A stretch of DNA of 64,000 bases from Nocardioides aromaticivorans (lineage in GTDB: Bacteria; Actinomycetota; Actinomycetes; Propionibacteriales; Nocardioidaceae), in NCBI RefSeq assembly GCF_013408525.1, contig NZ_JACBZM010000001.1, positions 2,046,001-2,110,000 on the forward strand. The letters run 5' to 3'. Position 1 is the first letter of the stretch; every line of letters starts with the position of its first letter. Below the pieces are notes generated by a model. It ran no database searches. It saw only the letters and a list, made by a program, of their open reading frames with translations, and had not been told where the DNA came from. This document shows, piece by piece, positions 36,917 to 63,188 of the stretch. A program made the translations under genes and the position numbers.

Positions 36917-36989
36917 GGGGCCTTGGCGCAATTGGTAGCGCACCTGCTTTGCAAGCAGGGGGTTAGGGGTTCGAGTCCCCTAGGCTCCA
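36917..36989 (+). tRNA. tRNA-Ala (anticodon TGC)
   Basis: The 73-nt cloverleaf has acceptor GGGGCCT/AGGCTCC with one G-T pair, anticodon loop TTTGCAA with TGC, and T-arm AGGGGTTCGAGTCCCCT. CCA is not fully encoded. The accessory island begins right behind it. Confidence 0.96.
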
Positions 36990-36995
36990 CCGTCT

Positions 36996-37021: not shown

Positions 37022-37167
37022 CTTCATTTCGAGTGTGGTTTGGTTCGGGAACGGGAGCCGCGGGGACTGCAGAGGGAAGCGACGCCCATTCCGGTAACCG
37101 CCCCATGGGCTTGCGGTGAGTTCGGCAAGATGGTCCCAGCTTCTGTCTGATTCCATGAAGGACGTTC

Positions 37168-38913: not shown

Positions 38914-40088
38914 TGATCCCGCTCGGTCGTCTGGTCGATCTCGTGACAGCGAAGGCAACTGACCAATCGTTCAAGATCGGCCTGGAGGCCATCGAGCCCG
39001 GCACGGGCCGCATGACCGCGGATCCCTTGACGGATTACGACGGCGACGGCATCGGATTCGAGCCGGGTGATGTGCTCTTCGGAAAGCTTCGGCCGTATTT
39101 GGCGAAGGCTTGGCTCGCGGACCGGCGAGGTGCGGCGGTCGGAGAGTTCCACGTCTATCGGCCCTGCGCGGATCGCGTCGATCCCGGATACCTTCGTTGG
39201 GCGCTACTTGGCCGCAGCTTCCTGGACCCAGTCGAGTCTTCAGTCGTAGGCGCCAAGATGCCTCGTGCGGAGTGGACGTTCGTTCGCTCGATTGAACTTC
39301 ATGCTCCGCATATCGCCGAGCAGCGAGCCGTAGCTGGCTACCTCGACCGCGAGACCGCCCGCATCGACAGCCTCATCGAGGAGCAGGAGCGCCTGATCGA
39401 GATGCTCCGCGAGCGCCGCGCTGCTGCGGTTTCCGAGGCAGCGTCCGAGATCGAGACCAGGGGACCCCGGCTGAAGCACATCATCCGATCGGTCAGGCAG
39501 GGGTGGAGCCCCCAGTGCTATGCGTGGCCAGCCGACGGCGTTGAGACGTGGGCAGTGCTCAAGGCCGGGGCCGCAAACGGGGGCACGTTCCGGCCCATGC
39601 AGAACAAGGAGTTGCCAGAGACCGAGTCACCCCGCCCCGAGATCGTTGTGCGAAGAGGCGACCTCATTGTCTCCAGAGCCAACACACGCGAATTGGTTGG
39701 AAGTGCAGCTGTCGTGGATGGCGAGTTCCCCCGTCTGATGCTTTGCGACAAGCTCTACGCATTCAGTCTCGACGAAACGCGGGCTCTGCCGCGCTATGTG
39801 GCTGCCGTGCTCGGAAGCCGTCGATGGAGGGACATGATCGAGATGGAGGCGACGGGTGCGAGCCATTCGATGTTGAACGTCAGCCAATCTGACATCGTCA
39901 ACCTCCCGATGCCGCTACCCCGGATAAGTGACCAGCGCCGCATTCTCGCGCGGCTCGACGAGCAGACCGCGAAGATCGATACGACAACTGCCGAGACCGA
40001 GCGGTTCATCGAGCTCTCAAAGGAACGCCGCTCGGCGCTGATCACCGCAGCCGTGACGGGTCAGATCGACGTCCGGGAGGTGGTCTGA
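38910..40088 (+). CDS. hsdS: Type I restriction-modification specificity subunit
   Basis: The 392-residue HsdS has two target-recognition domains separated by coiled-coil spacers. The first half-site recognition domain spans about residues 1-140 and ends with AEQRAVAGYLDRETARIDSLIEEQERLIEMLRERRAA. The second spans about 185-340 and ends with SDQRRILARLDEQTAKIDTTTAETERFIELSKERRSAL. A bipartite DNA target is expected; its sequence cannot be read off. ATG 38910 or the adjacent 38913 could start it; 38910 overlaps the hsdM stop. Confidence 0.95.
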   Translation: MMIPLGRLVDLVTAKATDQSFKIGLEAIEPGTGRMTADPLTDYDGDGIGFEPGDVLFGKLRPYLAKAWLADRRGAAVGEFHVYRPCADRVDPGYLRWALLGRSFLDPVESSVVGAKMPRAEWTFVRSIELHAPHIAEQRAVAGYLDRETARIDSLIEEQERLIEMLRERRAAAVSEAASEIETRGPRLKHIIRSVRQGWSPQCYAWPADGVETWAVLKAGAANGGTFRPMQNKELPETESPRPEIVVRRGDLIVSRANTRELVGSAAVVDGEFPRLMLCDKLYAFSLDETRALPRYVAAVLGSRRWRDMIEMEATGASHSMLNVSQSDIVNLPMPLPRISDQRRILARLDEQTAKIDTTTAETERFIELSKERRSALITAAVTGQIDVREVV

Positions 40089-43000
40089 TGGCTGACCACA
40101 ACGAGATCGTCTTCGAGTCCGAGACCTGTGCGTATCTCGAGGCGCACGGCTGGCTCTACTCGCCGAACGACGCGGGCTATGACCGGGAGCGTGCTCTCTT
40201 TCCGGAGGATCTCTTCGCGTGGCTCGAGGAGACGCAGAAGCCGGCGTACGAGAAGGCGTTGAAGGCGGCCGGGTCGTCGGCGAAGTTTCTCGATGTCCTC
40301 ACGGATGCGCTCGACAAGCCGCTCGAGCACGGTGGCGGGACGCTCAACATCCTGCGTAGCGGGGTGCAGTACATCGGAGGCGGCCGCCTCAAGATGGCCC
40401 AGTTCCGTCCGGACACGACGCTCAACGCCACCACGAACATCCAATACGACGCCATGCGCGTCCGGGTGATGCGGCAGGTCCACTTCTCCACCGCTGACCA
40501 GCGCAGCATCGATCTGGTGCTGTTCGTCAACGGCATCCCCGTGGCGACCGCCGAGTTGAAGACTCACTTCACGCAGTCTTTGGACGAGGCGATCAACCAG
40601 TACAAGAAGGCCCGCAACCCCATCACCAACGGTCGGGCCGAGCCGCTCCTGTCCTTTGGGCATCGGGCGCTCGTGCACTTCGCTGTCTCCAATGACCTGG
40701 CAGCGATGACTACCAAGCTCGAGGGCGAGAAGACCCACTTCCTGCCGTTCAACGTCGGCCATGACGGAGGCGCCGGAAACCCACCAGGCGCCGAAGGCCG
40801 GTCGGCAACGGCGTACCTGTGGGAGCGGGTCTGGGAGAAGCACGCCTGGCTCAACATCATCGGCCGCTTGATGATCGTCGAGACCAAGGAGGAGTGGGAC
40901 GTCGCAACCGGCACCTCGGTGCGGCGCACTAGCATGCTCTTCCCGCGGTTCCACCAGTGGGAGGCCGTCACCGAGATCGTTGCCGCCGTCGCCGAGGAGG
41001 GCGTCGGACAGCGCTATCTGATCGAGCACTCGGCCGGTTCCGGCAAGACGAACACCATTGCCTGGACCGCGCACCGTCTCGCCCGACTCCACGTCGATGA
41101 CAAGAAGGTCTTCGACTCGGTGATCGTCGTCGTGGACCGAACCGTTCTCGACGGCCAACTCCAGGACGCCATCCGCCAGATCGACGGCTCAGGCAAGATC
41201 GTCGCGACCATCAGCCCCGAGGACGTACGCAAGGCTGGCGCGAAGTCGAAGTCCAGCCTACTGGCGACGGCCCTCAAGAACGGCGAGCTCATCATCGCCG
41301 TTACAGTGCAGACGTTCCCGTTCGCACTCGACGAGATCCGAGCCGATTCCGCGCTCACGGGCAAGCGCTTCGCCGTCATCGCAGATGAGGCGCACTCCTC
41401 GCAGTCCGGCCAGATCTCCTCCAAACTCAAGGCGGTCCTCACGGCCGAAGAGTTGAAGGAGCTCGAGGAAGGCGGCGAGGTCGATGTCGAGTCCGTGCTC
41501 GCCTCGGAGATGGCCGAGCGTGCCGAGTCGGAGAACATCTCCTATCTCGCCTTCACCGCGACGCCGAAGAACAAGACCCTGGAGCTGTTCGGTCGCAAGG
41601 GCGCCGACGGTAAGCCACGCGAGTTCCACCTCTACTCGATGAAACAGGCGATCGACGAGGGCTACATCCTCGATGTGCTCAAGGGCTACCAGTCCTACGA
41701 CACCTCGCTGAAGATCGCCGGCAACGCCAGCACTGAAGGCGAGGTCGAAGAAGGTGCTGCGCGCAAGGGGCTGATGCGCTGGGTGCAGCTGCACCCCACG
41801 AACATCAGCCAGAAGGTTCAGATCATCGTCGAGCACTTCCACGCCAACGTCGCGCACCTGCTCGAGGGCAAGGCGAAGGCCATGGTCGTGACGGACTCAC
41901 GCAAGGCCGCGGTGAAGTACAAGAAGGCCATCGACGCGTATATCGCGAAGCGCGCGGCCCAGGACCCGACGTACAACTATCGCACCCTCGTGGCCTTCTC
42001 TGCCGGCGTGAAGTTTGCGGAGGACGAGGAGTGGGGCTCCGATTGGGGGCCGTCGCCGACCAAGGACGACGAGTTCACCGAGGGGAACCTGAATCCCGGG
42101 GCAGGCGCTGACCTGGCGGCCGCGTTCAAGGGCGAGACCTACAAGATCATGCTGGTCGCTAACAAGTTCCAGACCGGCTTCGACCAACCTCTGCTGTCCG
42201 CGATGTACGTCGACAAGCGCCTGTCCGGAGTGACCGCGGTCCAGACGCTGTCGCGGCTCAACCGAACCCACCGAACGGCTGGTGGCGAGCAGAAGCGCAA
42301 GACGTTCGTCATCGACTTCCACAACAAGCCCGAGGACATTCGCGCCTCGTTCGAGCCGTACTTTAAGAACGCCGCCTTGGAGACCGAGACTGACCCGTAC
42401 GTCGTTGTGCACCTGGCGACCAAGTTGGCGCACGCCGGCATCTACAGCGAAGACGACGTCCGGAAGGTCGCCGAATTATGGGTGACCCGCAAGGGCAACA
42501 ACGCCCTGTCAGCGGCGATCAGCCCTGCCCAACACGACTTCAAGCGCCGGTATGCACGCGCGATCGAGGAAGACGACAGGGTCACCCTCAATACCCTCGA
42601 CCTCTTCCGCAAGGACGTCTCCACCTACGTCCGGCTCTACGACTTCATGAGCCAGATCGTCGATTACGGCGACCCCTACATGGAGATGCTTTCGATCTTC
42701 CTCCGGCTCTTGGAGAAGGTCATTGCCGAGTCGGCATGGGCGGCCGAGGTCGATCTCTCCGACGTGGTACTGGTCGGGGTGAAACACAAGAAGCTCGCAG
42801 TCGTCGACATCTCGCTGACCGGCGACGGCGAGCTCAAGGGGATCAAAGCCGCCGGCACCGGCAGCAAGAAGGACCCGAACTACGTCGCGCTCCAGGTCGT
42901 CATCGACCGGATGAACGACCTCTTCGGCGCCGAGTCATTCGCAGAGTCCCAGGTCCGGGAGTTCGTCCAGGGATTGGTGCAGCGTCTGCTGCTCTATCCC

Positions 43001-43216
43001 GACCTCGTCAAGCAGACCAAGGTCAACTCGAAGAAGCAGTTCATGGAGTCACAGGACTTCCAGGCGGCGGTAACGGAGGCCGTCGTGGACAACCAGGACG
43101 CCCACAACACGATGGCCGACTACTTCTTCAGCGATGGGCCGGGGATCAACGGGGTGATAGTGGCGCTCGCGGACGCCTTCTACGAAGCCGCGACCGACGA
43201 CGAGACCGGCCAGTGA
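40088..43216 (+). CDS. hsdR: Type I restriction endonuclease, motor and nuclease subunit
   Basis: HsdR translocates DNA and cuts unmodified molecules. The 1042-residue product has an N-terminal PD-(D/E)xK nuclease with Asp142 and Glu156-x-Lys158 (SIDLVLFVNGIPVATAELK). The SF2 motor has Walker A SAGSGKT (315-321), DEAH (433-436) and FTATPKNKTLELFG. A helical C-terminal domain completes it. All key residues are intact, so the system looks functional. The start overlaps hsdS as TGATG. Confidence 0.96.
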   Translation: MADHNEIVFESETCAYLEAHGWLYSPNDAGYDRERALFPEDLFAWLEETQKPAYEKALKAAGSSAKFLDVLTDALDKPLEHGGGTLNILRSGVQYIGGGRLKMAQFRPDTTLNATTNIQYDAMRVRVMRQVHFSTADQRSIDLVLFVNGIPVATAELKTHFTQSLDEAINQYKKARNPITNGRAEPLLSFGHRALVHFAVSNDLAAMTTKLEGEKTHFLPFNVGHDGGAGNPPGAEGRSATAYLWERVWEKHAWLNIIGRLMIVETKEEWDVATGTSVRRTSMLFPRFHQWEAVTEIVAAVAEEGVGQRYLIEHSAGSGKTNTIAWTAHRLARLHVDDKKVFDSVIVVVDRTVLDGQLQDAIRQIDGSGKIVATISPEDVRKAGAKSKSSLLATALKNGELIIAVTVQTFPFALDEIRADSALTGKRFAVIADEAHSSQSGQISSKLKAVLTAEELKELEEGGEVDVESVLASEMAERAESENISYLAFTATPKNKTLELFGRKGADGKPREFHLYSMKQAIDEGYILDVLKGYQSYDTSLKIAGNASTEGEVEEGAARKGLMRWVQLHPTNISQKVQIIVEHFHANVAHLLEGKAKAMVVTDSRKAAVKYKKAIDAYIAKRAAQDPTYNYRTLVAFSAGVKFAEDEEWGSDWGPSPTKDDEFTEGNLNPGAGADLAAAFKGETYKIMLVANKFQTGFDQPLLSAMYVDKRLSGVTAVQTLSRLNRTHRTAGGEQKRKTFVIDFHNKPEDIRASFEPYFKNAALETETDPYVVVHLATKLAHAGIYSEDDVRKVAELWVTRKGNNALSAAISPAQHDFKRRYARAIEEDDRVTLNTLDLFRKDVSTYVRLYDFMSQIVDYGDPYMEMLSIFLRLLEKVIAESAWAAEVDLSDVVLVGVKHKKLAVVDISLTGDGELKGIKAAGTGSKKDPNYVALQVVIDRMNDLFGAESFAESQVREFVQGLVQRLLLYPDLVKQTKVNSKKQFMESQDFQAAVTEAVVDNQDAHNTMADYFFSDGPGINGVIVALADAFYEAATDDETGQ

Positions 43217-43306
43217 CCGAAGCAACGGCTTAGCAGCTCGAACTGACAGCTGCCGTCGGGGGCGAGCTACTGCTCAGCTCGTCGCCTGATCCAAGGAGCC
43301 GCAGGC

Positions 43307-46300
43307 TCACTCATTTCGAATTTCTTCGTTCTCAATAGCTCGTGGTCGCAGATCGACGCGCAGGGCGGAAAGTCTCGCTGCTCCGTCGAGGCCACGGTTT
43401 CGCAGCAGCTCCAGCATGTCCTCTTGGCGCGGCTGGCCAAAGGTCAGGCGGTACAGCGCCACATCTGACTTGACCCTGTCGTACCGCGCCTCGTCGGAGC
43501 TGAGGACAAACGGGGTGATGTGGCGCTCGATCTTCGCGGGGCCGGGGTAGACCCAGCCCGGGGTGAAGTCGCCATACTCGTGGCGATGGTCCGTCGCGAG
43601 CTCGTAGAGGCGATCCCATGGGTTGCCGCCGACTTGGGCAAGCGCAGCGGGTCCGTGCCTGCTAGCGACGTTCTTGCGGACCGCGTGCCCGCGGTAGCGG
43701 TCGACACGGCCCTCCCGCTGCTCGAAGTCGACCGGGTTCGGCGGAGTGTTCCAGTGGAAGATGGCGTGGCACCACCAATGGAAATCGATACCCTCCTGGC
43801 CCACAGAGGTCGAGGCCAAGACCATCGGCCAGAAGGGGCTGTTGAACGAGCGTCGCACCTCCGGTTGGCGAGCGTCTTCCGCCTTCTGGTCGCGGGCGCC
43901 GTACCGCAGGGCGAAGCGGCCAACGAAGCTCAGCGGGACCGAGGCCGCTGCCGGGTCCTTAGCCCGGTAGGTGCTCGGCTTCAGCCCGATAGCGGCTGCC
44001 GCTTCTGAGGCGAGTCGGCCGATTTTGGCGTCGTCGAAGTCGCCGACGACGAGATCCGCTTGGAGATGGTGGAGGTACTCGTCGAGGACGGCTTCCAGGT
44101 TCCCGTTGGCGCAGTAGGTCAGCACCTTGCGCCAGTACGGCGTTCGCTCGGCACCGAGCCGCTCGACGATCTTGGTGACATCCGGGCGGTTGAAGAGGGA
44201 GCGGAGACCGTTGGCGAGGGTGGCTGCGGCTTCGAACAGACCTCGTTCGGTCACATTGTCGAAGTCATGGCACAGGCGGTGGAGCACGCGTACGGCGATC
44301 GAGCCTGGCGCGAAGAGCGCGATCTCGGCGAGCAGGTCTGCCGTCTCGTGGTCGAGAGGACGCTCGGGTGCTGCCAGTTCCTCGCGCACGTGCTGGAGGT
44401 GCTGCAGCACGCCGGCATGACGCACAGTTGCGCCAGCGGACTCGTCATCGTCGTCGGACTCGGCGGCACCGGACAACGCGAGGGCGACCTCATCGTCACG
44501 CATCGTCGCCGGCCAGTTCCCCGCCATCGAGAACGCTGCACGCCACTGGGCGACGCGCAGACCGGATTCGTCACCGTCCGGGTCCGCCTGAGACAGCCCA
44601 GGCTCGATGTCGAGCATCGCGAGGAGGCGCGTCCTGACGTCAGAGCGAGCATCTGCGGCCGACACTTGCCTGCCACCGCGCTCGGCGACGATCTGCAGTG
44701 GGTCGATCGCGTTGGCCAGGGCCAGGAAAGGCCAATGCAGCATCAACGTCGGCATGCCGCGGAGCCGGCCAGTTTGCTGGGTGACCGAGTAGTTGAAGTG
44801 CTTGACGATTCGCTTCCTGGCCTCGGGTGTGTACTCGTCGTAATTGCTGCCAGCCGCCGCGTGACGCTCGGCCTCGAAGCTGAGGATCCCGGCAACGGCA
44901 GCAGGCGTCGCGGCCCACGACGAGAAGACGAGGCGCTTCGTCATCGACGAGGCGGCAGGGTCGGCGTATGCCCCGCCGGGTAAGAAGTAGGGGAGCGACG
45001 GCGGCACCCAGAGGAGCTGCCACCAACCCTGCCCGACAGTGTCGTGCGTGAGCGCGCGCATCCGCGCGTTCCCGGGATCCAACGGCTTGAACTGTTCGAT
45101 TGCAGCTGCGTGGATGCGCTGAGTCGCTGCGACGGCCCTCCGCAGGTCGGAGCTGGGAGAGGCCTCGTCGAGCCGTCGGCCGAACTGGTACCCGTCGGCG
45201 AAATTGATGAAGTACGGTGCCGACTTCCAGAACTCTGCGGTCACCAGTCCGCGGTCCTTCTCCCGAGCGACCAATCGACCGACCTCCTGGAGGCGCGCGA
45301 AACCGACGAGGTCCGCGGCCCGTACATCGTCAGCCGGTCGACGGTGCTCCACCGTCATCGATCCGTCCGGGAGTGCCGGACGCTCAGCACGACTCATCAG
45401 CTTGAGGAGGTCGTGGCGAAGGGCGTCCACCACCGATGCATCGCCCACGCCGGAGGACACGAGGTCGCGGTACTCCTTGAGCCGGACGCGGATCGTGTCG
45501 ACGCTGACGTCGCCTCGGCCCTGGGCAAGGAAGGTCAGCGTGTTGAAGAGGTCCTTTGCGTGGTCCTCCTCCTTCTCCTCCGCATAGGTGAACGGCTTGT
45601 ACGGCGTTGCCGAAAGCAGGAGCACCTTCGCGGCGTCGTACTCGAAGAGGTGGTGGGCGAGTTCACCGGCCGCGGTGGACGGGTCGAGCAGGTGCCGAAA
45701 CCGTTGAAACTCGTCGAGGATCACGAGGTCCGGCTCAAGCGTGTGCACACTCGCTGCAGCAAGAGCTCCGCGGAGCTCACCTACGAGGCGGCGGTGGTCA
45801 TCGTGGAGGTGGGAGGGCACCGAGTCGCGTCGACCGATCGCCGCGATCATCTGGACGAAGCGTGTCTTGAGGCTCTCGGGTTCGTCGGCACTGATGAGGC
45901 GCTCGAACTGCTCGAGGATCGCAGGATCGAGGCCCCCCGGCCCGATCTGGCGCCGGAGGTCGTCGACCTTCCAGTCGAACCGCTCAATCTTGCGAACGTT
46001 GCCCTGGAGCAAGCGTCGACTGGCTCGCTGGCCCCAGCCGTCCATCTGGACCAGCTCTCGAATGGCCAGCAGGATCATCGCCCTCTCGCGAGACTTTCCA
46101 AGCTGGTGACCCGGGTCGAACGAGGTGCCCGGGGTGAACGACACGAGGTTGATCGGCTTGCCGACGTGACCAGCTTGGCGGAGGCGGCGGCTGTGCTCGG
46201 CGAGCAAGGTCAGGCGGCTCGAGAACGGGATTTCGGCTTGGCCTGTCACGTTGAGCCTGCGGAGGTTCTGCTTGGCGAGGTCCTCGTTTGAGCAGACGTA

Positions 46301-46522
46301 GACAACATCGATCCGCTCGACCGAAGGCTCGTCCTGGAGCGTCTCGATCGCGCGGGCGATGACGCCCTGTGCCACACGGGTCTTTCCCAGACCTGTCTCG
46401 TCGGCGACGAGAAAGCGCTTCCCGCCGACTGGTCCGTAGAACTGCTCGATCACGTGATCGACGCTGGCAAGCTGGAAGTCGGTGAGGCCGCGAAGGTGCG
46501 GCTCTGCGTCGTACCGCTTCAT
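43307..46522 (-). CDS. Large SNF2/SF2-type helicase of a three-gene accessory operon
   Basis: The 1071-residue product has Walker A DETGLGKT (residues 41-48) just after a Q-motif-like RGLTDFQLASVDHV. DEFQ (270-273) stands in place of DEAD/DEAH, then SATP (304-307). A long middle region of about 500 residues precedes the second RecA core, which has STSVGQEGIDF and QREGRVDR (935-942). It is therefore a complete ATP-driven translocase or helicase. The large insertion between the cores is not recognised. Its ATG overlaps the upstream PLD gene stop by 4 bp. With that gene and DUF6361 it forms a probable anti-phage cassette (inference from neighbourhood). No nuclease motif was seen in it. Confidence 0.85.
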   Translation of the reverse strand: MKRYDAEPHLRGLTDFQLASVDHVIEQFYGPVGGKRFLVADETGLGKTRVAQGVIARAIETLQDEPSVERIDVVYVCSNEDLAKQNLRRLNVTGQAEIPFSSRLTLLAEHSRRLRQAGHVGKPINLVSFTPGTSFDPGHQLGKSRERAMILLAIRELVQMDGWGQRASRRLLQGNVRKIERFDWKVDDLRRQIGPGGLDPAILEQFERLISADEPESLKTRFVQMIAAIGRRDSVPSHLHDDHRRLVGELRGALAAASVHTLEPDLVILDEFQRFRHLLDPSTAAGELAHHLFEYDAAKVLLLSATPYKPFTYAEEKEEDHAKDLFNTLTFLAQGRGDVSVDTIRVRLKEYRDLVSSGVGDASVVDALRHDLLKLMSRAERPALPDGSMTVEHRRPADDVRAADLVGFARLQEVGRLVAREKDRGLVTAEFWKSAPYFINFADGYQFGRRLDEASPSSDLRRAVAATQRIHAAAIEQFKPLDPGNARMRALTHDTVGQGWWQLLWVPPSLPYFLPGGAYADPAASSMTKRLVFSSWAATPAAVAGILSFEAERHAAAGSNYDEYTPEARKRIVKHFNYSVTQQTGRLRGMPTLMLHWPFLALANAIDPLQIVAERGGRQVSAADARSDVRTRLLAMLDIEPGLSQADPDGDESGLRVAQWRAAFSMAGNWPATMRDDEVALALSGAAESDDDDESAGATVRHAGVLQHLQHVREELAAPERPLDHETADLLAEIALFAPGSIAVRVLHRLCHDFDNVTERGLFEAAATLANGLRSLFNRPDVTKIVERLGAERTPYWRKVLTYCANGNLEAVLDEYLHHLQADLVVGDFDDAKIGRLASEAAAAIGLKPSTYRAKDPAAASVPLSFVGRFALRYGARDQKAEDARQPEVRRSFNSPFWPMVLASTSVGQEGIDFHWWCHAIFHWNTPPNPVDFEQREGRVDRYRGHAVRKNVASRHGPAALAQVGGNPWDRLYELATDHRHEYGDFTPGWVYPGPAKIERHITPFVLSSDEARYDRVKSDVALYRLTFGQPRQEDMLELLRNRGLDGAARLSALRVDLRPRAIENEEIRNE

Positions 46523-48309
46523 GCCCAGGTCTCTCCCAACATGTCCTGTGCCTCGCGAACGGTTGCCCAGAACGCATCGAACCCGTCGGGAAGCACCTCG
46601 CGGCCCTTTTCGGTGGACTGAAGCCGATGAACGAGCCGATCGAGGTCGCCGAGAGCAGCTGGTCGCTCGGAGAGCGCCCGCAACACGAGCTCGAGAATCC
46701 CGGGACCGCCCGACTGGCCGATGCCGAAGCCCTGGCCGTCCCCCTCTGCTGAGCCGGCCAGCTGGGCAAGCAGGTGCGGGTTGCCGAGGCTGAGCAGCAG
46801 GTAGAGGAAGCGAAGGAACTTGTCAGGGGTGTCGATTTGACGAGCGAGGATCTGGTCGAGTCGATCAGCGGGCGGGTCGATGAGCTCAGCGACGATGACG
46901 CACGCGACGTCGAGGCCCGAATCGGTGGTGATCTGGACGACCAGGAACGGGGTGAGGTCCGCGGTGGCGATGCCGCTGAAGGTTCCGGCGAGTGCCTCGC
47001 CTTCTGCGGCGACGATGCTGTTGCCGGCCTTAGTCATCAGGCGCACGCTCGCTCGCCAGCCGGTACAGAGCGGGTAGGGCTTGCGGGCAGAGACGCGCAC
47101 GTCGTGCCCCTCGGTTTCCGACGCCTCGCGATCGCCATCAACGACGGCGACGTGGTGCTCGATCTCGGCGATCTCGCGAAGCGCGTTCTCGACCTTGCGT
47201 CGCTCGTCCTCGTCGGGGTCGAGTGCGGCGCCACCCGTGGCGCGGTATGGCTCCAGCAGCACGCGGAACGGCGCGGTTTCACCCAGGAAAGAGTCGATTC
47301 CGAGGTGATCGCGATGGCCATGGAGCTCGACGATGAATTCGACATTCCGCTGCAAGGCAGCGTCGGTTGCATTCGCCGAGCCGATGAACACGTGGGCGCT
47401 CGCCCATTTGGCCGTCGGCTCGACGACGAACATCTTGGCGTGGAGGTCACCGCCGAGGTTAGTTTCGTCGGTTTCTGTGACGACAGCCATCGAGTCGATG
47501 ACGTAGGCGTCGAGACGCTCGGCGACCCCAGGTGAAAGCCTCTCGAGCTCAGCGGCACGCGAGAGAACCGTGGTCGCGCCGTTCGGGTCCAGGAGAGCGA
47601 GTCCGGCGTCGTTGATGAAGGGGGAGACCACGAGGCGTCGACCTGGCGGCAGGTCTGGCATCGGACGGTTTCCGCCGAGGAAGTGGAAGCCAAGGTGTCG
47701 GACGGTGTCGGGCCACTGCCACTCGATACGGCGCGCCTCGCCCGCTAGTTGGCTGATTCTTTCGGCCCGCTCTGGCGCGAGCTCGCGAATCGTCCAAGTA
47801 GGCAGCGAGGCCAGGAGGTCGGCAAGCGGCGCGTTGGCGTCCTGCTCCCTATCGCCGAGGGAGGCGGAGTCAAGGCGAACAGCAAGGTCCCAGGAGCGGT
47901 CGTTGGTGAGGTTGCGGGTCAGCACCAACAATCGGTACGACGCTTGGCCCGCGTCGTCGACGTACCTGACGAACCAGATCTTCGGGTGAAAGAGGCCGCC
48001 ACGCGGGCGCTTCACCTCGTGGACCAGCGGCTCCAGAAAGGCGAGCAGGTCGGGCACGTGGCTGGGCGCAGCGATGTTGCCGCCCTGACAGAAGACATCG
48101 AGCCGGTCACCGGTCGCTCGGAGCGCTTCGAGCAGAGCGATCGGATCGGCGGAGGATCCTGAGTAGGAGTACGAAGTGAAGGCGAGCGCCGGGATCAATG
48201 TCGCGGTCAGGTCGAGCGTGAAGGTCGTCGCGATGGCTGCATCGAACCGCGAGCCCGGAGGCGGCGCGAGTTGCTCCAAGAGCACGACGCGACTGTCAGG
48301 AGCCAGCAT
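46519..48309 (-). CDS. Phospholipase D-like (HKD) protein of the accessory operon
   Basis: The 596-residue product has two HKD half-sites. The first is LFHPKIWFV (His108, Lys110) with RNLTNDRSWDLAV. The second is DLHAKMFVVE (His290, Lys292) with FIGSANATDAALQRN. Such pairs occur in lipases and in nucleases of the PLD superfamily. Together with a helicase a nuclease role is more likely, but this is inference. The C-terminal 240 residues are a separate region without recognised motif. ATG 48309 overlaps the DUF6361 gene by 14 bp. Confidence 0.85.
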   Translation of the reverse strand: MLAPDSRVVLLEQLAPPPGSRFDAAIATTFTLDLTATLIPALAFTSYSYSGSSADPIALLEALRATGDRLDVFCQGGNIAAPSHVPDLLAFLEPLVHEVKRPRGGLFHPKIWFVRYVDDAGQASYRLLVLTRNLTNDRSWDLAVRLDSASLGDREQDANAPLADLLASLPTWTIRELAPERAERISQLAGEARRIEWQWPDTVRHLGFHFLGGNRPMPDLPPGRRLVVSPFINDAGLALLDPNGATTVLSRAAELERLSPGVAERLDAYVIDSMAVVTETDETNLGGDLHAKMFVVEPTAKWASAHVFIGSANATDAALQRNVEFIVELHGHRDHLGIDSFLGETAPFRVLLEPYRATGGAALDPDEDERRKVENALREIAEIEHHVAVVDGDREASETEGHDVRVSARKPYPLCTGWRASVRLMTKAGNSIVAAEGEALAGTFSGIATADLTPFLVVQITTDSGLDVACVIVAELIDPPADRLDQILARQIDTPDKFLRFLYLLLSLGNPHLLAQLAGSAEGDGQGFGIGQSGGPGILELVLRALSERPAALGDLDRLVHRLQSTEKGREVLPDGFDAFWATVREAQDMLGETWA

Positions 48310-49486
48310 GGAGCCCCCTCAAGATGTCATTGACGACGGCCCGCACATTGCCCCATCGGTACGCGAGTCGACCTACGCCGGCACTTCCCGACCACGAAGC
48401 GAGTAGCTTCTCATTGACCAGTCGCGACTGAGATCCCTTGCGCTTCTCGCGAATCCGGACCAGCTCGCGGAGTCCCTGGTTGTCAGCAGGTGATGCACCC
48501 TCGCGAAGCCCAGCAATCCAACTGTCGACGAACGATCGAGTACTTGGTCCGATGTTGGGGTTCTGCCCGATGGCCAGCTCCCACATGCGATCGACGTCCC
48601 AAGCCGTGAGGCTTATGCCGTACCGCTCGGAAAAGTCCGCATGCCATTGGGTCAACGCGGTGCGGTAGGTCTCCACCGGCTGGGGGACGTGGTCGAATCC
48701 CTTCAGCTCGTACTGCTCCCCGATCAGCAGGTTGTACAGAAGCGGCGCGCCCTCGATCACCGCGCTGAACCACTCGGCGTGGTGAAGTGGTTCGAACTCT
48801 GAGGGCGGCGCGGCGTGCCATGGGTAGCGGACGTCGTCGCCGATCACCTCGTGCCGGTTCAAGAGGTGCGCAAGCACGGTGTCAGGTGCCGCGGTGACCA
48901 TCCGGCCGTAAAGCCACTCAGCCTCGGCCGGGGTCATCGCGAAGCCGCCGGGGACCTCATTGGGGAATCCCTGAGGGGCCGGGGGAATCCCAGGATCCCA
49001 CTCGCCAACGACCCTTTCGCTGAGCTCGGTCGCGCTGTCGCCGCCGGACCGACGTGCAGCTGAGCCGATCGCACCGGGATTCGTCCGCACCTTGTAGGTG
49101 AGCATGCCGGACCAGTAGAGGGTCGACGGCAGGTTCTTCACCTCGGGCCCTACCCGGCTCCCGATGAGGCCGGCGGCGTCATCGAAGGCCGAATCCTGAA
49201 AGGTCTTGATCAGCTGGCGTTCCTGAAGCTGGCCGACGCGGAAGTTCTCCTTGTCATAGGCGTGCGCCGCCCGGCCGCTCGTGTAGCACCACGGTACGAA
49301 GAGGTAGTAACGAGCGCGCGTCTGCAGCACAGAAGTGCCCGGGAACAGTAGGTCGCTGAACGCGTCCCGAACCTGTCCGATCCCCAGCTCGTCGCGGCTC
49401 TCCGTTTGCGAGAACAGGGCGACGAGCTCGCGAGTCACCCGCTGTTCTTCGGGGGTGGAGTCGAGCCACGCGATCAGCGAGGTCAC
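48296..49486 (-). CDS. DUF6361 family protein, first gene of the accessory operon
   Basis: The 396-residue product matches the DUF6361 family as I recall it: SLIAWLDSTPEEQRV at the start, SRDELGIGQVRDAFSDLLFPGTSVLQTRARYYLFVPWCY in the N-terminal third, and LRELVRIREKRKGSQSRLVNEKLLASWSG near the end. The biochemical activity is unknown. GTG 49486 starts the leftward operon, with a palindrome 32 bp upstream. It is translated before and overlaps the PLD gene. Confidence 0.78.
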   Translation of the reverse strand: MTSLIAWLDSTPEEQRVTRELVALFSQTESRDELGIGQVRDAFSDLLFPGTSVLQTRARYYLFVPWCYTSGRAAHAYDKENFRVGQLQERQLIKTFQDSAFDDAAGLIGSRVGPEVKNLPSTLYWSGMLTYKVRTNPGAIGSAARRSGGDSATELSERVVGEWDPGIPPAPQGFPNEVPGGFAMTPAEAEWLYGRMVTAAPDTVLAHLLNRHEVIGDDVRYPWHAAPPSEFEPLHHAEWFSAVIEGAPLLYNLLIGEQYELKGFDHVPQPVETYRTALTQWHADFSERYGISLTAWDVDRMWELAIGQNPNIGPSTRSFVDSWIAGLREGASPADNQGLRELVRIREKRKGSQSRLVNEKLLASWSGSAGVGRLAYRWGNVRAVVNDILRGLHAGS

Positions 49487-49517
49487 TCGGCTGCTTTACG
49501 CCGTCGGATGTTCATCA

Positions 49518-49533
49518 CCTATCGGAAGATAGG
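49518..49533. promoter_or_regulatory. Palindrome upstream of the accessory operon
   Basis: CCTATCGGAAGATAGG is a 6-bp perfect inverted repeat around GGAA, 32 bp before the DUF6361 start. It could be an operator or an RNA tetraloop hairpin in the leader. Confidence 0.35.
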
Positions 49534-49690
49534 GGAACCGTCCGACGACTGGGATGCATTTCGAGGTTGAAGGTCGCTTGTTGCGGCCTGCAAGTAGTGC
49601 ATTCGATCTGGGGCTCTGTACGCCAAGGCGCCACCATTGCGGCCGTAGGAAACCGTCAGCGAATGGCCGTCGGCTAGGCGCCTGCGTCAT

Positions 49691-49696
49691 TAGTCT
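49691..49696 (+). promoter_or_regulatory. -10 element before the EcsC-like gene
   Basis: TAGTCT ends 6 nt before ATG 49703, suggesting a leaderless transcript. No ribosome site is visible. Confidence 0.45.
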
Positions 49697-49702
49697 CCTG
49701 CT

Positions 49703-50533
49703 ATGGCGGAACAAACCCAGGACAAGCTCTACGCGACGGCGCTGCAAACGATTGGCGCGGTTGCCCATCTGCCGGTCGTGAGGGTGGATCGAGAGGCGTT
49801 CCTGCGCAAGCACTTCGGCAAGTCGCCGCACATCGACGTGATCCTTGAGCGGGGTCCGCAGGCGGTCTACTCGGTGGAGTCGCTCCGGAAGAAGGCTTCG
49901 TCAATCATCAAGAGCAGCGCCACGAAGTCTTCTGCCGTCTCATTCGCTTCGGGGCTGCCCAGCAACCCGTTGGTGATGGTTGCGGCCGGAGGTGCGGATG
50001 TCGCGCAGTACTTCGGTTTCGCGATCAACCTCGCACAGCAAATCGCCTACCTCTTCGGGGAGGAGGAATTGTTTGACGGTGGTAGCGCGGAGCTGTCCGA
50101 GGCGGCGCAGATCCGCATCATCGGCTACCTGGGCGCGATGTTCGGCGCGGCCGGTGCGGCAGCGCTCGTCTCGCAGACGTCGAAGACAGCGGGTCAGAAC
50201 CTCGGCAAGAAGGTGGCGGCGCAGGCCCTGACCAAGACGGCCTGGTACCCGTTGGTGAAGAAGGTCGGGGCCCTGGTCGGCAAGCAAGTGACCAAGAAGA
50301 CCGTCGAGAAGACGATCACCAAGGCTGTTCCTGTGGTCGGAGGCGTCGTCTCCGGTGGGTTGACCTACGTGACGTTCCGTCCTATGGGCAACCGCCTGGC
50401 CGACACGTTCGTGAGCAACCTGAACGGCGAGTACGACGACGAGCTCGAACTGAACGCCGACTTCGCCGCGGGCTTGGATGCGGACGTTGTTCCCGGCGAG
50501 GTGCTCGCCGAGGAGACCGGAGCCGGCGAGTAG
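49703..50533 (+). CDS. EcsC-like membrane-associated protein
   Basis: The 276-residue product has several weakly hydrophobic, glycine/alanine-rich helices: SFASGLPSNPLVMVAAGGADVAQYFGFAINLAQQIAYLFG, IIGYLGAMFGAAGAAALVS, and KAVPVVGGVVSGGLTYVTF. Lysine-rich connectors join them, and the C-terminal tail is acidic. The pattern resembles EcsC family proteins, whose function is poorly known. It is the last gene of the accessory island, divergent from the three-gene operon and convergent with the OhrR-like gene. Confidence 0.55.
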   Translation: MAEQTQDKLYATALQTIGAVAHLPVVRVDREAFLRKHFGKSPHIDVILERGPQAVYSVESLRKKASSIIKSSATKSSAVSFASGLPSNPLVMVAAGGADVAQYFGFAINLAQQIAYLFGEEELFDGGSAELSEAAQIRIIGYLGAMFGAAGAAALVSQTSKTAGQNLGKKVAAQALTKTAWYPLVKKVGALVGKQVTKKTVEKTITKAVPVVGGVVSGGLTYVTFRPMGNRLADTFVSNLNGEYDDELELNADFAAGLDADVVPGEVLAEETGAGE

Positions 50534-50548
50534 GTCCCGACTGGCGTC

Positions 50549-50995
50549 CTACGCCATCTTGTCGGCCACGTTGGCACTCAGGTGCTCTAGGCTGTCCTTC
50601 AACATCGCGAACTCACCCGGCTCCAGCGCCATCACCTCAGCGATCGAGTCCGGGATGCCCACCGCCTTCGCGCGCAGCTCCACGCCGGCTTCGGTCAGGG
50701 TCACGTGCACCGTCCGCTCGTCCTCGGTGCTGCGCGTGCGGGCAACCAGGCCGGCGGACTCCAGCCGCTTCACCAGAGGCGTCACCGTGCCGTAGTCCAG
50801 GCCGAGGCGGGTGCCGAGCTCGCCCATGGTCATCGGCGCTGACTCCCAGAGGGCCAGCATGGCGACGTACTGCGAATAGGTGAGGCCGAGCGCGTCGAGG
50901 ATCGGGCGGTAGGCGGCGGTGACCAGGCGCTGCGCCGTGTAGAGCGAGAAGCAGAGCTGCTCGCCCAGGTCGAGGCTGTGCTTCGGCTTGGCCAT
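50549..50995 (-). CDS. MarR-family regulator of the OhrR type
   Basis: The 148-residue winged-helix protein has the OhrR N-terminal signature LGEQLCFSLYTAQR with Cys15, the position of the peroxide-sensing cysteine in OhrR. The wing region follows (RTRSTEDERTVHVTLTEAG). Oxidation of Cys15 by organic peroxide would release it from DNA. I chose ATG 50995 over longer in-frame starts because it aligns with the family N-terminus. Three copies of a palindrome lie in the divergent spacer to the esterase gene, so it probably controls both. Confidence 0.87.
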   Translation of the reverse strand: MAKPKHSLDLGEQLCFSLYTAQRLVTAAYRPILDALGLTYSQYVAMLALWESAPMTMGELGTRLGLDYGTVTPLVKRLESAGLVARTRSTEDERTVHVTLTEAGVELRAKAVGIPDSIAEVMALEPGEFAMLKDSLEHLSANVADKMA

Positions 50996-51018
50996 GGCTC
51001 CAGCGTAGGGCGCAACTA

Positions 51019-51090
51019 CCTTGCGCGAAAGGTTCTTGAGCAAAACCCTTGCGCGCAAGGTAGTTGTTACGTAATGTCTTGCGCACAAGG
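51019..51090. promoter_or_regulatory. Three tandem operators for the OhrR-like regulator
   Basis: CCTTGCGCGAAAGG (51019-51032), the perfect palindrome CCTTGCGCGCAAGG (51047-51060) and TCTTGCGCACAAGG (51077-51090) are spaced 28 and 30 bp apart. They lie between the divergent regulator and esterase genes. Confidence 0.75.
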
Positions 51091-51137
51091 TAATCGCCTT
51101 GGTCGTTCCCCCCGACAAGCCCCAAGGAGCAGCTGAC

Positions 51138-52100
51138 ATGTCTGCCAACCCCAAGAACATCGCGCTGGAGCCCGCCGCACAGGCCTTCGTCGAAGCCACC
51201 AGCGAGCCGCCCTTCCTCTACCAGCTCCCCGTCGCCGACGGCCGCGCCGCCGTCGATGGCGTGCAGGACGACCCGATCTTCAAGCCGGAGGTCGACGACG
51301 AGTGGATCGACGTGCCCGGCGGTCCGACTGGCGACGTCAAGGTCCGCATCGTCAAGCCGCAGGGCGCGACCGGCCCGCTGCCGGTGATCCTCTACGTCCA
51401 CGGCGCGGGCTGGGTGTTCGGTGACGCCCACACCCACGACCGCCTGGTGCGCGACCTCGCGATCGGTGCCGAGGCCGCGGTGGTCTTTCCGGAGTACGAC
51501 CGGGCGCCCGAGTTCCAGTACCCCCACCAGATCGAGCAGGCGTACGCCGTCGCGCAGTGGGTCACGAAGCAGGGCGCCGACAAGGGGCTGGACGGCGGCC
51601 GGATCGCGGTCGCCGGTGACTCCGTCGGCGGCAACATGAGCGCCGCGCTCACGCTGCTCGCCAAGGAGCGCGGGGACGTGAGCTTCGTCTTCCAGGTGCT
51701 CTTCTACCCGGTCACCAACGCCGACTTCGACACCACCAGCTACCACGACTTCGCCGAGGGCTACTTCCTCGCCCGCGACGGCATGAAGTGGTTCTGGGAC
51801 CAGTACACGACCGACCCGGCGCAGCGCGCCGAGATCACCGCCTCCCCGCTGCGCGCCACCACGGAGGACCTCGCCGGGCTCCCGCCGGCGCTGGTCATCA
51901 CGGCCGAGGCCGACGTGCTGCGCGACGAGGGTGAGGCGTACGCCGCCAACCTCCGCCGCGCCGGCGTCGACGTGACCGCGACCCGCTACCTCGGCATCGT
52001 CCACGACTTCGTGATGGTCAACAGCCTCCACGAGACCGCGGCCGCGAAGGCCGCGATCGCGCAGGCGGTGGGTGCGCTCCGGGGTGCCTTCGCCGGCTGA
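51138..52100 (+). CDS. Alpha/beta hydrolase, hormone-sensitive-lipase family
   Basis: This predicted esterase has 320 residues. The oxyanion-hole motif is HGAGW (in LPVILYVHGAGWVFGD), the nucleophile elbow is GDSVGGN, the acid lies in ITAEADVLRDEGEAYA and the histidine in IVHDFVMVNS. ATG 51138 follows AAGGAG and is preferred over an upstream in-frame start that would lie among the operators. It is probably induced by organic peroxide or by its substrate through the OhrR-like repressor. Confidence 0.9.
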   Translation: MSANPKNIALEPAAQAFVEATSEPPFLYQLPVADGRAAVDGVQDDPIFKPEVDDEWIDVPGGPTGDVKVRIVKPQGATGPLPVILYVHGAGWVFGDAHTHDRLVRDLAIGAEAAVVFPEYDRAPEFQYPHQIEQAYAVAQWVTKQGADKGLDGGRIAVAGDSVGGNMSAALTLLAKERGDVSFVFQVLFYPVTNADFDTTSYHDFAEGYFLARDGMKWFWDQYTTDPAQRAEITASPLRATTEDLAGLPPALVITAEADVLRDEGEAYAANLRRAGVDVTATRYLGIVHDFVMVNSLHETAAAKAAIAQAVGALRGAFAG

Positions 52101-52111
52101 TCAACCCCGCA

Positions 52112-52148
52112 CAGGAGAGCCCCGGTCAACCCGACCGGGGCTCTCCTG
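52112..52148. terminator. Bidirectional terminator
   Basis: A perfect 16-bp stem (52112-52127 with 52133-52148) encloses a 5-nt loop between the convergent esterase and oxidoreductase genes. Confidence 0.85.
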
Positions 52149-52150
52149 CG

Positions 52151-52783
52151 TCAGCGGACGATCTTGAAGTTGAAGTTCGCCGTCCCCAACGCGCCCATCA
52201 GCCGCAGCCAGACCGGCAGCATCATCTCGGTGCCGCGGGCGGTGGTGATGTCGCCGAGGTCGATCACGTCGGTATGGCCGAACTCCTCGAGCAGTGCGGT
52301 GACCGTCGCCTTCGCCGACGCGTCGTCGCCGGAGACGAAGACGCTGGTGCCCTCGGGCAGCAGGTCGGGGCGGACCATCAGGTCGGTGGTCAGGGTGTTG
52401 AGCGACTTGACCACCCGCGCGTCCGGGAAGGCGCGCTGGACCTGCTCGCCGAGGGAGTCGGTGTCCTTGACCAGCAGGGTCGGGGGGAAGCCGTTCGAGA
52501 AGTCGAGGGGGTTCGCGATGTCGAGCAACACCTTGCCGGCCAGCAGCTCGGCGCCGGCCAGGGACAGCATCGCGATCGAGGCGGTGCCATTGGTCGCGTT
52601 GACCACGACCTCGGCGTCGGCGACGGCATCGGGCACCGCCGCCAGCGGAAGGGTGGGCGCGTCGTCGCGGGCCCGGGTCGCCTCCGGGTCGCGGGTACCG
52701 ATGACCACCTCGTGGCCGAGCTCGTCGAGGCGGCCGGCGATGGTCCGGCCGACCATGCCCGTGCCGAGGACGGCGATCTTCAT
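52151..52783 (-). CDS. NADPH-dependent F420 reductase-like oxidoreductase
   Basis: The 210-residue product has the N-terminal dinucleotide fold MKIAVLGTGMVGRTIAGRLDELGHEVVIGTRDP, where the Arg after GT suits NADP. LLDIANPLDFSNGFPP and VKSLNTLTTDLMVRPDLL are also seen in F420:NADP oxidoreductase relatives. It could reduce or oxidise F420 or another substrate; sequence alone does not decide. ATG 52783 aligns the start with the fold. Confidence 0.82.
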   Translation of the reverse strand: MKIAVLGTGMVGRTIAGRLDELGHEVVIGTRDPEATRARDDAPTLPLAAVPDAVADAEVVVNATNGTASIAMLSLAGAELLAGKVLLDIANPLDFSNGFPPTLLVKDTDSLGEQVQRAFPDARVVKSLNTLTTDLMVRPDLLPEGTSVFVSGDDASAKATVTALLEEFGHTDVIDLGDITTARGTEMMLPVWLRLMGALGTANFNFKIVR

Positions 52784-52960
52784 GGGGACTCCTGGTCGGT
52801 GAGAGCCCGGTCTGGCCCGGGGTTCGGACGCTACCGCGTCGTACGACGACCGGTTCGTCAATCCCCCGTTGTGACGATTGTCGCCGCGGGCGGCCACGAG
52901 TAGTTTGCCCCGCGATAGAGCGGACCGGGCCGCCTGGAACTGCTTCGAAATGGGGTCGAA

Positions 52961-55474
52961 GTGAACCGCTCCCTGTCCACGCGCGCCTGTCGCGCCCTCG
53001 CCACCCTCGTCGGAGCGCTGCTCCTCGCGCTCGCCTCGCTCACCGCCACCACCTCGCCCGCCCTCGCGGACGCCAACGAGGCCGGCCTGGCCGCGGGTCC
53101 CTCGATCCGTGCCCAGCAGTCCCTGATCTCGGCGGGCGACGGGCACACCTGCTCGGTCGTCGGTACGGCGGCCACGCTGTGGTGCTGGGGTGACAACACC
53201 TTCGGCCAGCTCGGCAACGGCACCGTCACGTCGTCGACGACACCGGTGAAGGTGGTCGGCCTCTCGGGGGTGACGGCGGTCTCCGCGGGATCCCAGCACA
53301 CCTGCGCGCTGCTCGGTGACGGGAGTGCCCGGTGCTGGGGTCGCGACAACTACGGCCAGCTCGGCGTGGGGCTCGCCCCCAACGGCTTCTCCGCGGTGCC
53401 GGTCGCGCCCAACGGCGGGTTCACGTTCACGGCCATCTCGGTAGGCACCGGCTTCACCTGCGGGACGACGGTGAGCCAGGTGTTCTGCTGGGGTCGCGGG
53501 ACCGAGGGCGAGATCGGCAACGGGGGCCTGAGCAACGTCGCGTCACCCGCGCCGGTCGCCATGCCGGGACCGGCCCGTGCCCTCTCGGCCGGCAACCAGC
53601 ACGCCTGCGCCGCCCTCCAGTCCGGTCAGGCCTGGTGCTGGGGCAACAACACCCAGGGCCAGCTGGGCCTCGGCTTCGCGAGCGGCCCGCGGCTGCCGCA
53701 GCAGCTCGGCATCCAGAACGTCGAGGCGATCAGCGCCGGCGCCCTCCACACCTGTGCCCTCGCCGAGGGCGTCTCGAAGTGCTGGGGGTCCAACAGCGAC
53801 GGCCAGCTCGGGACCGGGAGCTTCAACTCGGTGCCCTTCCCGACCACCACGGCCAACAGCCCCTCCCTCGACCAGACGATCAGCGCCGGCGGCGCGCACA
53901 CCTGCTCCCGCGTGTCCAACCAGGTGCGCTGCTGGGGTCGCAACCAGGAGGGTCAGCGCGGGGTCCCGAACCTGAGCGACACCAGCATCGCGACCGCGAT
54001 CCCCACCTACGCGGGCGAGATCCCGGTGGTGAGCACCGGGACGGCGCACACCTGCGTGCGGTTCGCGAACGGCCGCGTCGACTGCTTCGGGTTCAACCAG
54101 CAGGGCCAGCTCGGCAACGGTACGACGACCCACAGCTCTACTCCGGTGCGCGCGCTCGGCGTCCCGGGCACCCCGGGCGGCGCGTCCGCCAGCGTCGTCG
54201 CCTACGGCACCATCAAGGTCAGCTGGAGCGCGCCGGCGAGCACGGGCAACATCCCGCTCGACCACTACCGGATCTACGACACGGAGGGCACCCTCAGCCG
54301 TCTCGTCCCGGCCGGCCAGACGTCCGAGACCCTCAGCGCCCTGCCCTCGGGGCAGACCTACAACCTGCGGATCGTGGCGGTCAACGAGCTCGGTGAGGGA
54401 CAGCCCGCCCAGCTCACCGCGATCACCACACCGACGCAGCCGGTCATCCTCGTCGACGACGTGTCGTACGCCGAGGGCAACTCGGGCACGAAGAACATGA
54501 CCTTCACCCTGACCCGGTCCGGCCCCGTCGGCGCCACGTCCTCCGTCAAGGCCGCCACCCAGAACGGCACGGCCGTGGCGTCGGGCGACTACACCGCGAA
54601 GGCGGCCACGACGATCAGCTTCGCGGCCGGCCAGGTGAGCAGGACCTTCGTGGTGAGCACGAAGGGCGACCTCCTGGCCGAGGACGACGAGTCCTTCAAC
54701 GTCGTGCTCTTCTCCCCGGTCGGTGCCCAGGTCTACGACACCACCGCGGTCGGGACGCTCGTGAACGACGACCCGGGCGGCAAGCCGGTCTACAGCATCA
54801 GCGGCGCGAGCACCGTCGAGGGCGACGCCGGCACGAAGAACCTCACCTTCACCATCACCCGCAGCGGCAGCACCGCGGTGGCCGGGTCGGTGCAGTACTA
54901 CACCCAGGCGCTCTCCGGCCAGGCGACGCCGACCACCGACTACACGACCAAGGCGGTGACGACGATGAGCTTCCCCGTCGGCGCTGTCACCAAGACGTTC
55001 ACGGTGGCGATCAAGGGTGACTACGTCGCGGAGAGCGACGAGTACTTCCAGGTCGTGCTCAAGAACCCGGTCAACGGCAGCCTGGCGACGATCCCGTTCG
55101 ACTACGGGCAGATCGTCAACGACGACTCGAGTGCGACGCCGAGCATCTCGATCAACGACGTCAGCGTGGTCGAGGGCGACAGCCTCACCAAGAACGTCAC
55201 CTTCACCGTCACCCGCTCCGGCAACCTGGCGGGCACGACGGCCTTCAAGTACGCCACCCAGGACGGCACCGCGATCGCGCCGGGTGACTACACCGCGAAG
55301 GCGCTGACCAGCCTCAGCTTCACGGCCGGCCAGACCAGCAAGACGCTCACGGTCACCATCAAGGGCGACACCGTGGTGGAGCCGGACGAGCTGTTCTCGG
55401 TCGTCCTGTCGGCCGTCACCGGCGGCACGATCGGCGACGGCACCGGGACGGCGACGATCACGAACGACGACTAG
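52961..55474 (+). CDS. Secreted RCC1-propeller protein with Fn3 and Calx-beta domains
   Basis: The 837-residue product has a signal peptide (cleavage near residue 36, PALADA). About seven RCC1-type blades follow (residues 45-400), each with a variant of HTCAL...CWGxNxxGQLGxG. A fibronectin type III-like domain comes next (about 405-495), then three Calx-beta repeats (about 496-600, 605-710 and 725-837). Each Calx-beta repeat has V(Y/V)EGDSGTKN...FTLTRSG and a DxxxExDE calcium site. Each RCC1 blade has a pair of cysteines. It is likely a surface or matrix-binding protein; there is no catalytic motif. GTG 52961 is the start, and a strong hairpin follows the gene. Confidence 0.85.
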   Translation: MNRSLSTRACRALATLVGALLLALASLTATTSPALADANEAGLAAGPSIRAQQSLISAGDGHTCSVVGTAATLWCWGDNTFGQLGNGTVTSSTTPVKVVGLSGVTAVSAGSQHTCALLGDGSARCWGRDNYGQLGVGLAPNGFSAVPVAPNGGFTFTAISVGTGFTCGTTVSQVFCWGRGTEGEIGNGGLSNVASPAPVAMPGPARALSAGNQHACAALQSGQAWCWGNNTQGQLGLGFASGPRLPQQLGIQNVEAISAGALHTCALAEGVSKCWGSNSDGQLGTGSFNSVPFPTTTANSPSLDQTISAGGAHTCSRVSNQVRCWGRNQEGQRGVPNLSDTSIATAIPTYAGEIPVVSTGTAHTCVRFANGRVDCFGFNQQGQLGNGTTTHSSTPVRALGVPGTPGGASASVVAYGTIKVSWSAPASTGNIPLDHYRIYDTEGTLSRLVPAGQTSETLSALPSGQTYNLRIVAVNELGEGQPAQLTAITTPTQPVILVDDVSYAEGNSGTKNMTFTLTRSGPVGATSSVKAATQNGTAVASGDYTAKAATTISFAAGQVSRTFVVSTKGDLLAEDDESFNVVLFSPVGAQVYDTTAVGTLVNDDPGGKPVYSISGASTVEGDAGTKNLTFTITRSGSTAVAGSVQYYTQALSGQATPTTDYTTKAVTTMSFPVGAVTKTFTVAIKGDYVAESDEYFQVVLKNPVNGSLATIPFDYGQIVNDDSSATPSISINDVSVVEGDSLTKNVTFTVTRSGNLAGTTAFKYATQDGTAIAPGDYTAKALTSLSFTAGQTSKTLTVTIKGDTVVEPDELFSVVLSAVTGGTIGDGTGTATITNDD

Positions 55475-55488
55475 TCCGCGCCGGAGGT

Positions 55489-55524
55489 CGGGAGGAGCTC
55501 GCGCGGTCGCGCGAGCTCCTCCCG
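55489..55524 (+). terminator. Hairpin after the RCC1/Calx-beta gene
   Basis: Arms 55489-55505 and 55508-55524 are perfectly complementary over 17 bp with a minimal loop. There is no T-tract. It starts 15 bp after the stop. Confidence 0.7.
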
Positions 55525-55699
55525 GCTGAGGCCAGACCGCGGCTACGACGTCGTGGAGCCGCCGTACCCATCCGTTGTGACGTGAACTCCGAATGGCCAG
55601 AAGGGCACGCCCCTTGCGTTGTCGGCGCTGCGCCCTAGGGTCGAACGCAGGCGTCTCCGGCGGGCGCACGGGGCGACCGCGGACGACGAGGAGGCTCGG

Positions 55700-57981: not shown

Positions 57982-58097
57982 TCCGACCGCAAAATCTCTC
58001 GCGAAGGGGTGGACGCGCGCAGGTCCCGGAGGGCAGGGTCGGATCCGGCCCGGTGGACCCGGGCCGAGCTTCGTTCCACTACTCGGAGGGACCACAC

Positions 58098-59753: not shown

Positions 59754-59785
59754 GTCGGAGCACGTCTCCGGGGCTCCCCTCATGG

Positions 59786-59791
59786 CAGACT
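59786..59791 (+). promoter_or_regulatory. -10-like hexamer before the lipoprotein gene
   Basis: CAGACT ends 7 nt before GTG 59799. The same hexamer and spacing class occurs before 3695. No ribosome site is seen. Confidence 0.35.
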
Positions 59792-59798
59792 CAGCGCC

Positions 59799-63088: not shown

Positions 63089-63095
63089 GCCGACG

Positions 63096-63182: not shown

Positions 63183-63188
63183 GAATCC

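Follow-up and report, generated by a model that had tools for sequence, protein, structure and literature searches.

Three overlapping genes of Nocardioides aromaticivorans raise the question of which system they form, and whether that system could act against phages. They lie in a genomic stretch of 64,000 nt (hereafter, the window), and the seven proteins encoded between positions 37168 and 50533 were scanned against PADLOC-DB 2.0.0. The trio matched the models of Zac, i.e., ZacA (381.6 bits, nearly the whole model), ZacB (538 bits, PDLC03829, residues 1–588) and ZacC (1090.6 bits, nearly the whole model). Given that all three proteins match these models over about their full length, the trio is, by profile comparison, ZacABC, a candidate defence system that PADLOC already names. 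The genes also form a single operon (a criterion of our own and not PADLOC's rule), with overlaps of 14 and 4 nt and an order kept in 65/65 complete relatives. A preliminary description of this DNA had treated the trio as not yet named and had said that a database match to a named system would speak against it; such a match was looked for, and the Zac models refute the claim of novelty. Its candidate anti-phage reading is otherwise supported, at the level of sequence, by the PADLOC matches, operon conservation in distant taxa, patchiness and some defence-type neighbours.

No description of Zac or DUF6361 was found in the literature searched, most subscription papers and bioRxiv preprints being outside its scope. 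The trio was not described in the passages available from PMC12458937 (YprA helicases), PMC12839542 (BREX), PMC10853773 (phosphorothioation), PMC12988326 (archaeal immunity) and PMC9252829 (the PADLOC server). According to the passage from PMC12988326, the majority of PADLOC PDC candidates are without validation. The PADLOC-DB rows for Zac give neither a description nor a source. The locus is therefore an instance of a candidate system that is named but, within the searches made, without a published description, and the interest that remains is in DUF6361 and in a variable slot before zacA.

Table 1 Features of the Zac locus in the window and upstream ORFs in four Geodermatophilaceae loci (handles L044 to L059).
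Feature	Position	Strand	Details
tRNA-Ala	36917-36991	+	upstream of the type I RM operon
hsdM-hsdS-hsdR	37168-43216	+	type I RM operon, neighbour outside Zac; Pfam and PADLOC-DB scans
hsdM	37168-38913	+	type I RM gene
hsdS	38910-40088	+	type I RM gene
hsdR	40088-43216	+	type I RM gene
zacC	43307-46522	-	Swi2/Snf2-type ATPase, 1071 aa; ATG start, ORF
zacB/zacC overlap	46519-46522	-	4 nt; ORF coordinates
zacB	46519-48309	-	PLD/HKD-superfamily protein, 596 aa; ATG start, ORF
zacA/zacB overlap	48296-48309	-	14 nt; ORF coordinates
zacA	48296-49486	-	DUF6361 protein, 396 aa; GTG start, ORF
PDC-S30	49703-50533	+	PADLOC candidate, 276 aa, outside Zac; PDLC04989, 9.7e-96
ORF of ~600 aa, L044	8211-10004
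ORF of ~600 aa, L051	8199-10004
ORF of ~600 aa, L055	8172-10004
ORF of ~600 aa, L059	8115-10004

The ORF coordinates (Table 1) bear out the earlier account of three overlapping genes, and also that of an operon facing a complete type I RM operon behind a tRNA gene: zacABC (43307–49486, minus strand) and hsdM-hsdS-hsdR (plus strand) are convergent, and the latter begins 176 nt past tRNA-Ala. PDC-S30, for which no Pfam match was obtained at 1e-3, is divergent from zacA on the opposite strand. The window copy is thus a plain three-gene Zac member, flanked by a type I RM operon on one side and by PDC-S30 on the other. The G+C content of 37100–50540 is 64.2%, versus 71.1% (1–36000) and 71.7% (50545–64000) on the two sides. 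Promoter and terminator signals at the locus were not above the level of shuffled sequence. A hairpin of 6 perfectly paired bp and a 4-nt loop (49518–49533), immediately 5' of zacA, is a possible operator. An inverted repeat of 26 nt with a 2-nt spacer and arms 88% complementary (51013–51066), possibly also an operator, lies by the start of what we take to be a MarR-type gene, ahead of a presumed alpha/beta hydrolase gene.

In the genus, the tRNA-Ala comes after a tRNA-Ile and looks like an integration site. Its 3' end (41–44 of 44 nt) is repeated ~14–16 kb downstream in four (L164, L168, L173 and L174) of the 12 relatives fetched, out of 39 searched. An HsdM-like gene is found between the tRNA-Ala and the repeat in L173. 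No tRNA-Ala stretch of at least 14 nt recurs within the window, and integration of the window island at tRNA-Ala was rejected for that reason. As to the right edge of the island, none of seven right-flank genes was detected within 12–20 kb past tRNA-Ala in 12 relatives (1e-15).

DUF6361 was detected in 18 of 196 genomes of the genus, the window's own counted. Fifteen of the 17 other congeners carry zacA-zacB-zacC in the same order, on which ground a housekeeping role of DUF6361 was rejected as the main reading. The other two have a truncated zacA (L032, 8710–9753) and a remnant (L035), broken loci as expected of an accessory system. Compared with the window ZacC, one of nine congeneric ZacC is 58% identical and eight are 34–38% identical, which indicates at least two distant lineages within the genus. 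In a phylum sample of 396 genomes, again with the window's own counted, ZacC was detected in five and DUF6361 in eight; two of these eight matches (G399 and G328) span the N-terminus only, and in G339 the match is nearly full, yet no ZacC was found at 1e-40 or better.

Beyond the phylum, GTDB was scanned with the ZacA alignment and the best 80 of 345 relatives were taken, a design in which ZacB or ZacC without ZacA is invisible. All three genes are complete, by set length limits, in 65 of these 80, whereas the remaining 15 run into a contig end, are split or fall short. In 65/65 complete relatives the genes share a strand and are ordered A-B-C, with junctions of ≤10 nt in 64/65 at each joint (longest-ORF starts). 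Pairwise distances of ZacA, ZacB and ZacC are correlated (r = 0.912, 0.919 and 0.928; each reached by 0/500 permutations), which is a sign of travelling together and not of binding, because shared species history also gives such correlation. Phyla are mixed in a ZacC tree built with a quick method (15 label changes versus a possible minimum of 9), which includes two archaeal rows; submitter labels and bins in the tree may err. Plasmid records with a DUF6361 relative number 39, of which 19 are from Cronobacter. Zac is thus patchily distributed across bacteria and archaea, plasmids included. For a Serratia zacA, no DNA match was found in E. coli genomes (nucleotide likeness only). A ZacC relative (98% of the query, 28.4% identical) was observed at 16149–19328 of MT835621.1, a 24-kb unannotated record filed as phage from human faeces, which may be bacterial DNA.

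ZacC is a Swi2/Snf2-type motor by its RecA-like core fold and ATPase motifs, i.e., DETGLGKT (41–48), DEFQ (270–273), SAT (304–306) and QREGRVDRY (935–943). The preliminary description had reported a 1071-residue helicase with DEFQ for DEAH, and both length and motif agree. DEFQ is kept in 66/66 family members (65 relatives and the window copy, the set used for all residue counts here) and is not peculiar to the window copy; K47, D270, E271, F272, Q273, R936, R939 and R942 are likewise kept in 66/66, and T48 is T, S or I across the family. The top structural matches of the predicted model are Swi2/Snf2 motors, at 11–19% identity among the matches listed. No subfamily was given to ZacC, because the scores of many differ by only a few Z units and the Foldseek TM-scores on the model are low (0.20–0.27 for E ≤ 0.001). 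By sequence profile, the only solved structures matched are RapA chains (best 9.5e-5, over ~40 residues). The insertion of ~500 residues that had been placed between the cores has the right size and is distributed differently, with ~210 residues between RecA1 and RecA2 and ~290 mostly helical residues inside RecA2, a split read from model secondary structure and motifs and not from a tool-made domain assignment. ZacC is probably a dsDNA translocase.

ZacB carries HPK (108–110) and HAK (290–292), with the partner motifs RNLT and GSANAT, respectively, after them, in line with the PLD-superfamily protein with two intact HKD sites proposed before. The H and K of both half-sites are conserved throughout the family, with H108, K110, N133, D141, H290, K292, G310, S311, N313 and E324 kept in 66/66; the Pfam PLDc_2 score is below the cut-off (23.3 versus 27). 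Its profile matched the solved structure 7clg (1.7e-5), an entry named Putative helicase that we take to be SauUSI, a modified-DNA endonuclease, and weakly the restriction endonuclease 2c1l (0.041). ZacB is therefore a probable DNase.

The assignment of the first gene to DUF6361 was confirmed by Pfam (PF19888, 1.3e-56). The predicted ZacA model is mostly helical and gave no clear structural match (Foldseek, VIA), and by sequence there was none among solved structures at E ≤ 1. Residues 1–30 and 139–160 are of low confidence, for which reason the fold is only a candidate for a new one. We infer that ZacA probably serves as an adaptor or sensor subunit.

Taken together, we consider it likely that ZacABC is a dsDNA-translocating nuclease complex that would destroy invading DNA. 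ZacC would track dsDNA with ATP, and ZacB, with two HKD half-sites in one chain, would cut the DNA so tracked. ZacA would join motor and nuclease and decide what is attacked, the whole complex then destroying phage or plasmid DNA that enters the cell. Because a modification gene is absent from the core, self is probably spared by recognition of DNA structure or foreign modification and not by protective methylation. DUF6361 gains a context, being encoded together with a DNA motor and a likely nuclease as their partner, and the survey gives a testable model of a three-subunit machine with residues for mutation.

The neighbourhood of Zac was profiled in 99 other loci (17 from the genus, 80 from GTDB and two from plasmids). 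Neither neighbour of the window copy is part of Zac: PDC-S30 was rejected with a relative, and a weak one, in 1/99 loci, and the type I RM genes with HsdM in 3/99 and HsdR in 5/99, some of them weak. Mrr-type genes were detected in 7/99, and DrmD-type, DruE-like and Mrr genes are close to some Zac copies. The most common neighbour cluster comprises 14 ORFs in 12/80 loci; its scanned member (L043, 1048 aa) matched DrmD with 1379 bits, with a DrmA-labelled model nearly equal. At 1e-20, the DrmD model matched 6/65 nearby ORFs versus 0/65 control ORFs, all controls being from one genome, the window's, and 118 PADLOC families were matched by nearby ORFs versus 10 (one ORF each) by the controls. The models of BrxHI, DpdE, HmaA and PLD_Helicase matched the same number of nearby ORFs as DrmD, and the neighbours may therefore belong to several Swi2/Snf2 systems. 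The defence neighbourhood that was expected of DUF6361 homologs is thus present, though at some loci only.

In a finer version of the complex proposed above, and compatible with it, Zac would restrict modified DNA in a type IV-like manner, ZacA being the subunit that reads the modification. The likeness of ZacB to 7clg, the core without a methyltransferase and the Mrr-type genes all point this way; on the other hand, ZacA has no recognised base-reading domain (Pfam and solved-structure profile search), the Mrr genes are accessory and few, and type I methylase genes are near 3/99 other copies and beside the window copy. We regard this version as possible but tentative. Somewhat less probable is an abortive system, in which ZacB would degrade host DNA, or act on lipid, once infection is sensed by ZacA and ZacC. 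Lipids are among the possible substrates of PLD folds, and the trio has no modification gene protecting self, both of which would suit such a role; against it, the profile search links ZacB to two solved relatives, one a helicase-type protein and the other a restriction endonuclease, and its conserved partner ZacC is a DNA motor by fold.

Upstream sequence of at least 1.5 kb was available for 59 complete loci, and in 29 of these a same-strand ORF of at least 150 aa abuts zacA (longest ORFs, not gene calls). The Pfam scan covered 27 of these 29 (all but L055 and L059), and ten have a nuclease-type domain, a figure that stands without a control set: Mrr (L052, L071 and L073), HNH (L069, L072, L076 and L113), T5orf172/MUG113, presumably of the GIY-YIG type (L082), HSDR_N (L089) and MTES_1575 (L050). 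Two more are MZB-bearing helicases (L078 and L099), and the remaining 15 either belong to other kinds or had no match (e.g., 5'-nucleotidase, PASTA, radical SAM, GNAT, CBS and DUF429). The window copy has no abutting upstream gene, PDC-S30 being farther out and on the opposite strand. In each of four Geodermatophilaceae, an ORF of ~600 aa extends up to the start of zacA (Table 1), and those of L044 and L051 had no Pfam match. Directly before ZacABC, the two plasmid loci (L176, 2919–15143; L177, 2836–15144) have PD-(D/E)XK and UvrD genes, an AddAB-like arrangement; similar genes are also near zacA in L037, where they share its strand, and at other positions in L059 and L071. In L177, the gene 29 nt beyond ZacC encodes a methyltransferase.

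The survey thus exposes a variable slot upstream of zacA, alongside the presence of Zac in bacteria and archaea. The slot could mean that ZacABC is the invariant core of a modular platform, to which ZacA, with an unseen fold, would dock an exchangeable upstream nuclease or helicase; ZacC would be INO80/SWR1-like in design, with its RecA2 insertion as the docking hub. The exchangeable parts would be Mrr, HNH, GIY-YIG, HSDR_N, MTES_1575, a Druantia-type helicase and the AddAB-like pair. We hold this to be speculative and rather unlikely. The AddAB-like partners and the RapA likeness of ZacC would fit a role in DNA repair or in the upkeep of transcription as well, but a repair or end-processing complex in place of defence is very improbable, given that 178/196 congeners have no DUF6361 match, that the genus holds such divergent ZacC lineages, that copies are plasmid-borne and that DrmD-type, DruE-like and Mrr genes are near some of them.

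The nuclease complex favoured here shares parts with several known systems. In DISARM, too, a Swi2/Snf2 motor occurs together with a PLD protein, and the cluster with DrmD as its scanned member is near Zac in 12/80 loci. The comparison with DISARM made earlier holds as this loose likeness only, since the Zac proteins match Drm models over short stretches (~45–80 residues): 44.9 bits for DrmD (NF038317, cut-off 610), 26 bits for DrmC (NF038319, cut-off 133) and, for the DrmA/DrmB core, one DrmA-labelled model matched by the motor over 45 residues. The trio differs further in having no DrmA, DrmB/DUF1998 or methyltransferase; no DUF1998/MZB match was found in the seven proteins scanned, and the statement that the trio has no methyltransferase or DUF1998 partner stands. 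The make-up of DISARM is partly given in the passages from PMC12458937, and an origin from DISARM or BREX was rejected in view of the passages on YprA helicases, BREX and phosphorothioation, in which the trio does not appear. SauUSI-type PLD-helicase enzymes likewise combine an HKD nuclease with an SF2 motor, consistent with the ZacB profile match to 7clg, whereas in Zac the nuclease and motor are encoded by separate, overlapping genes and not fused in one chain, and ZacA is added. ZacC shares its motor fold with RapA and INO80/SWR1/SRCAP and differs from them in sequence (11–19% identity among the matches listed). The INO80/SWR1 group has a long insertion within RecA2, which that of ZacC may resemble. 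With Zac as defined in PADLOC-DB 2.0.0 we saw no difference, the gene set being identical to the window trio.
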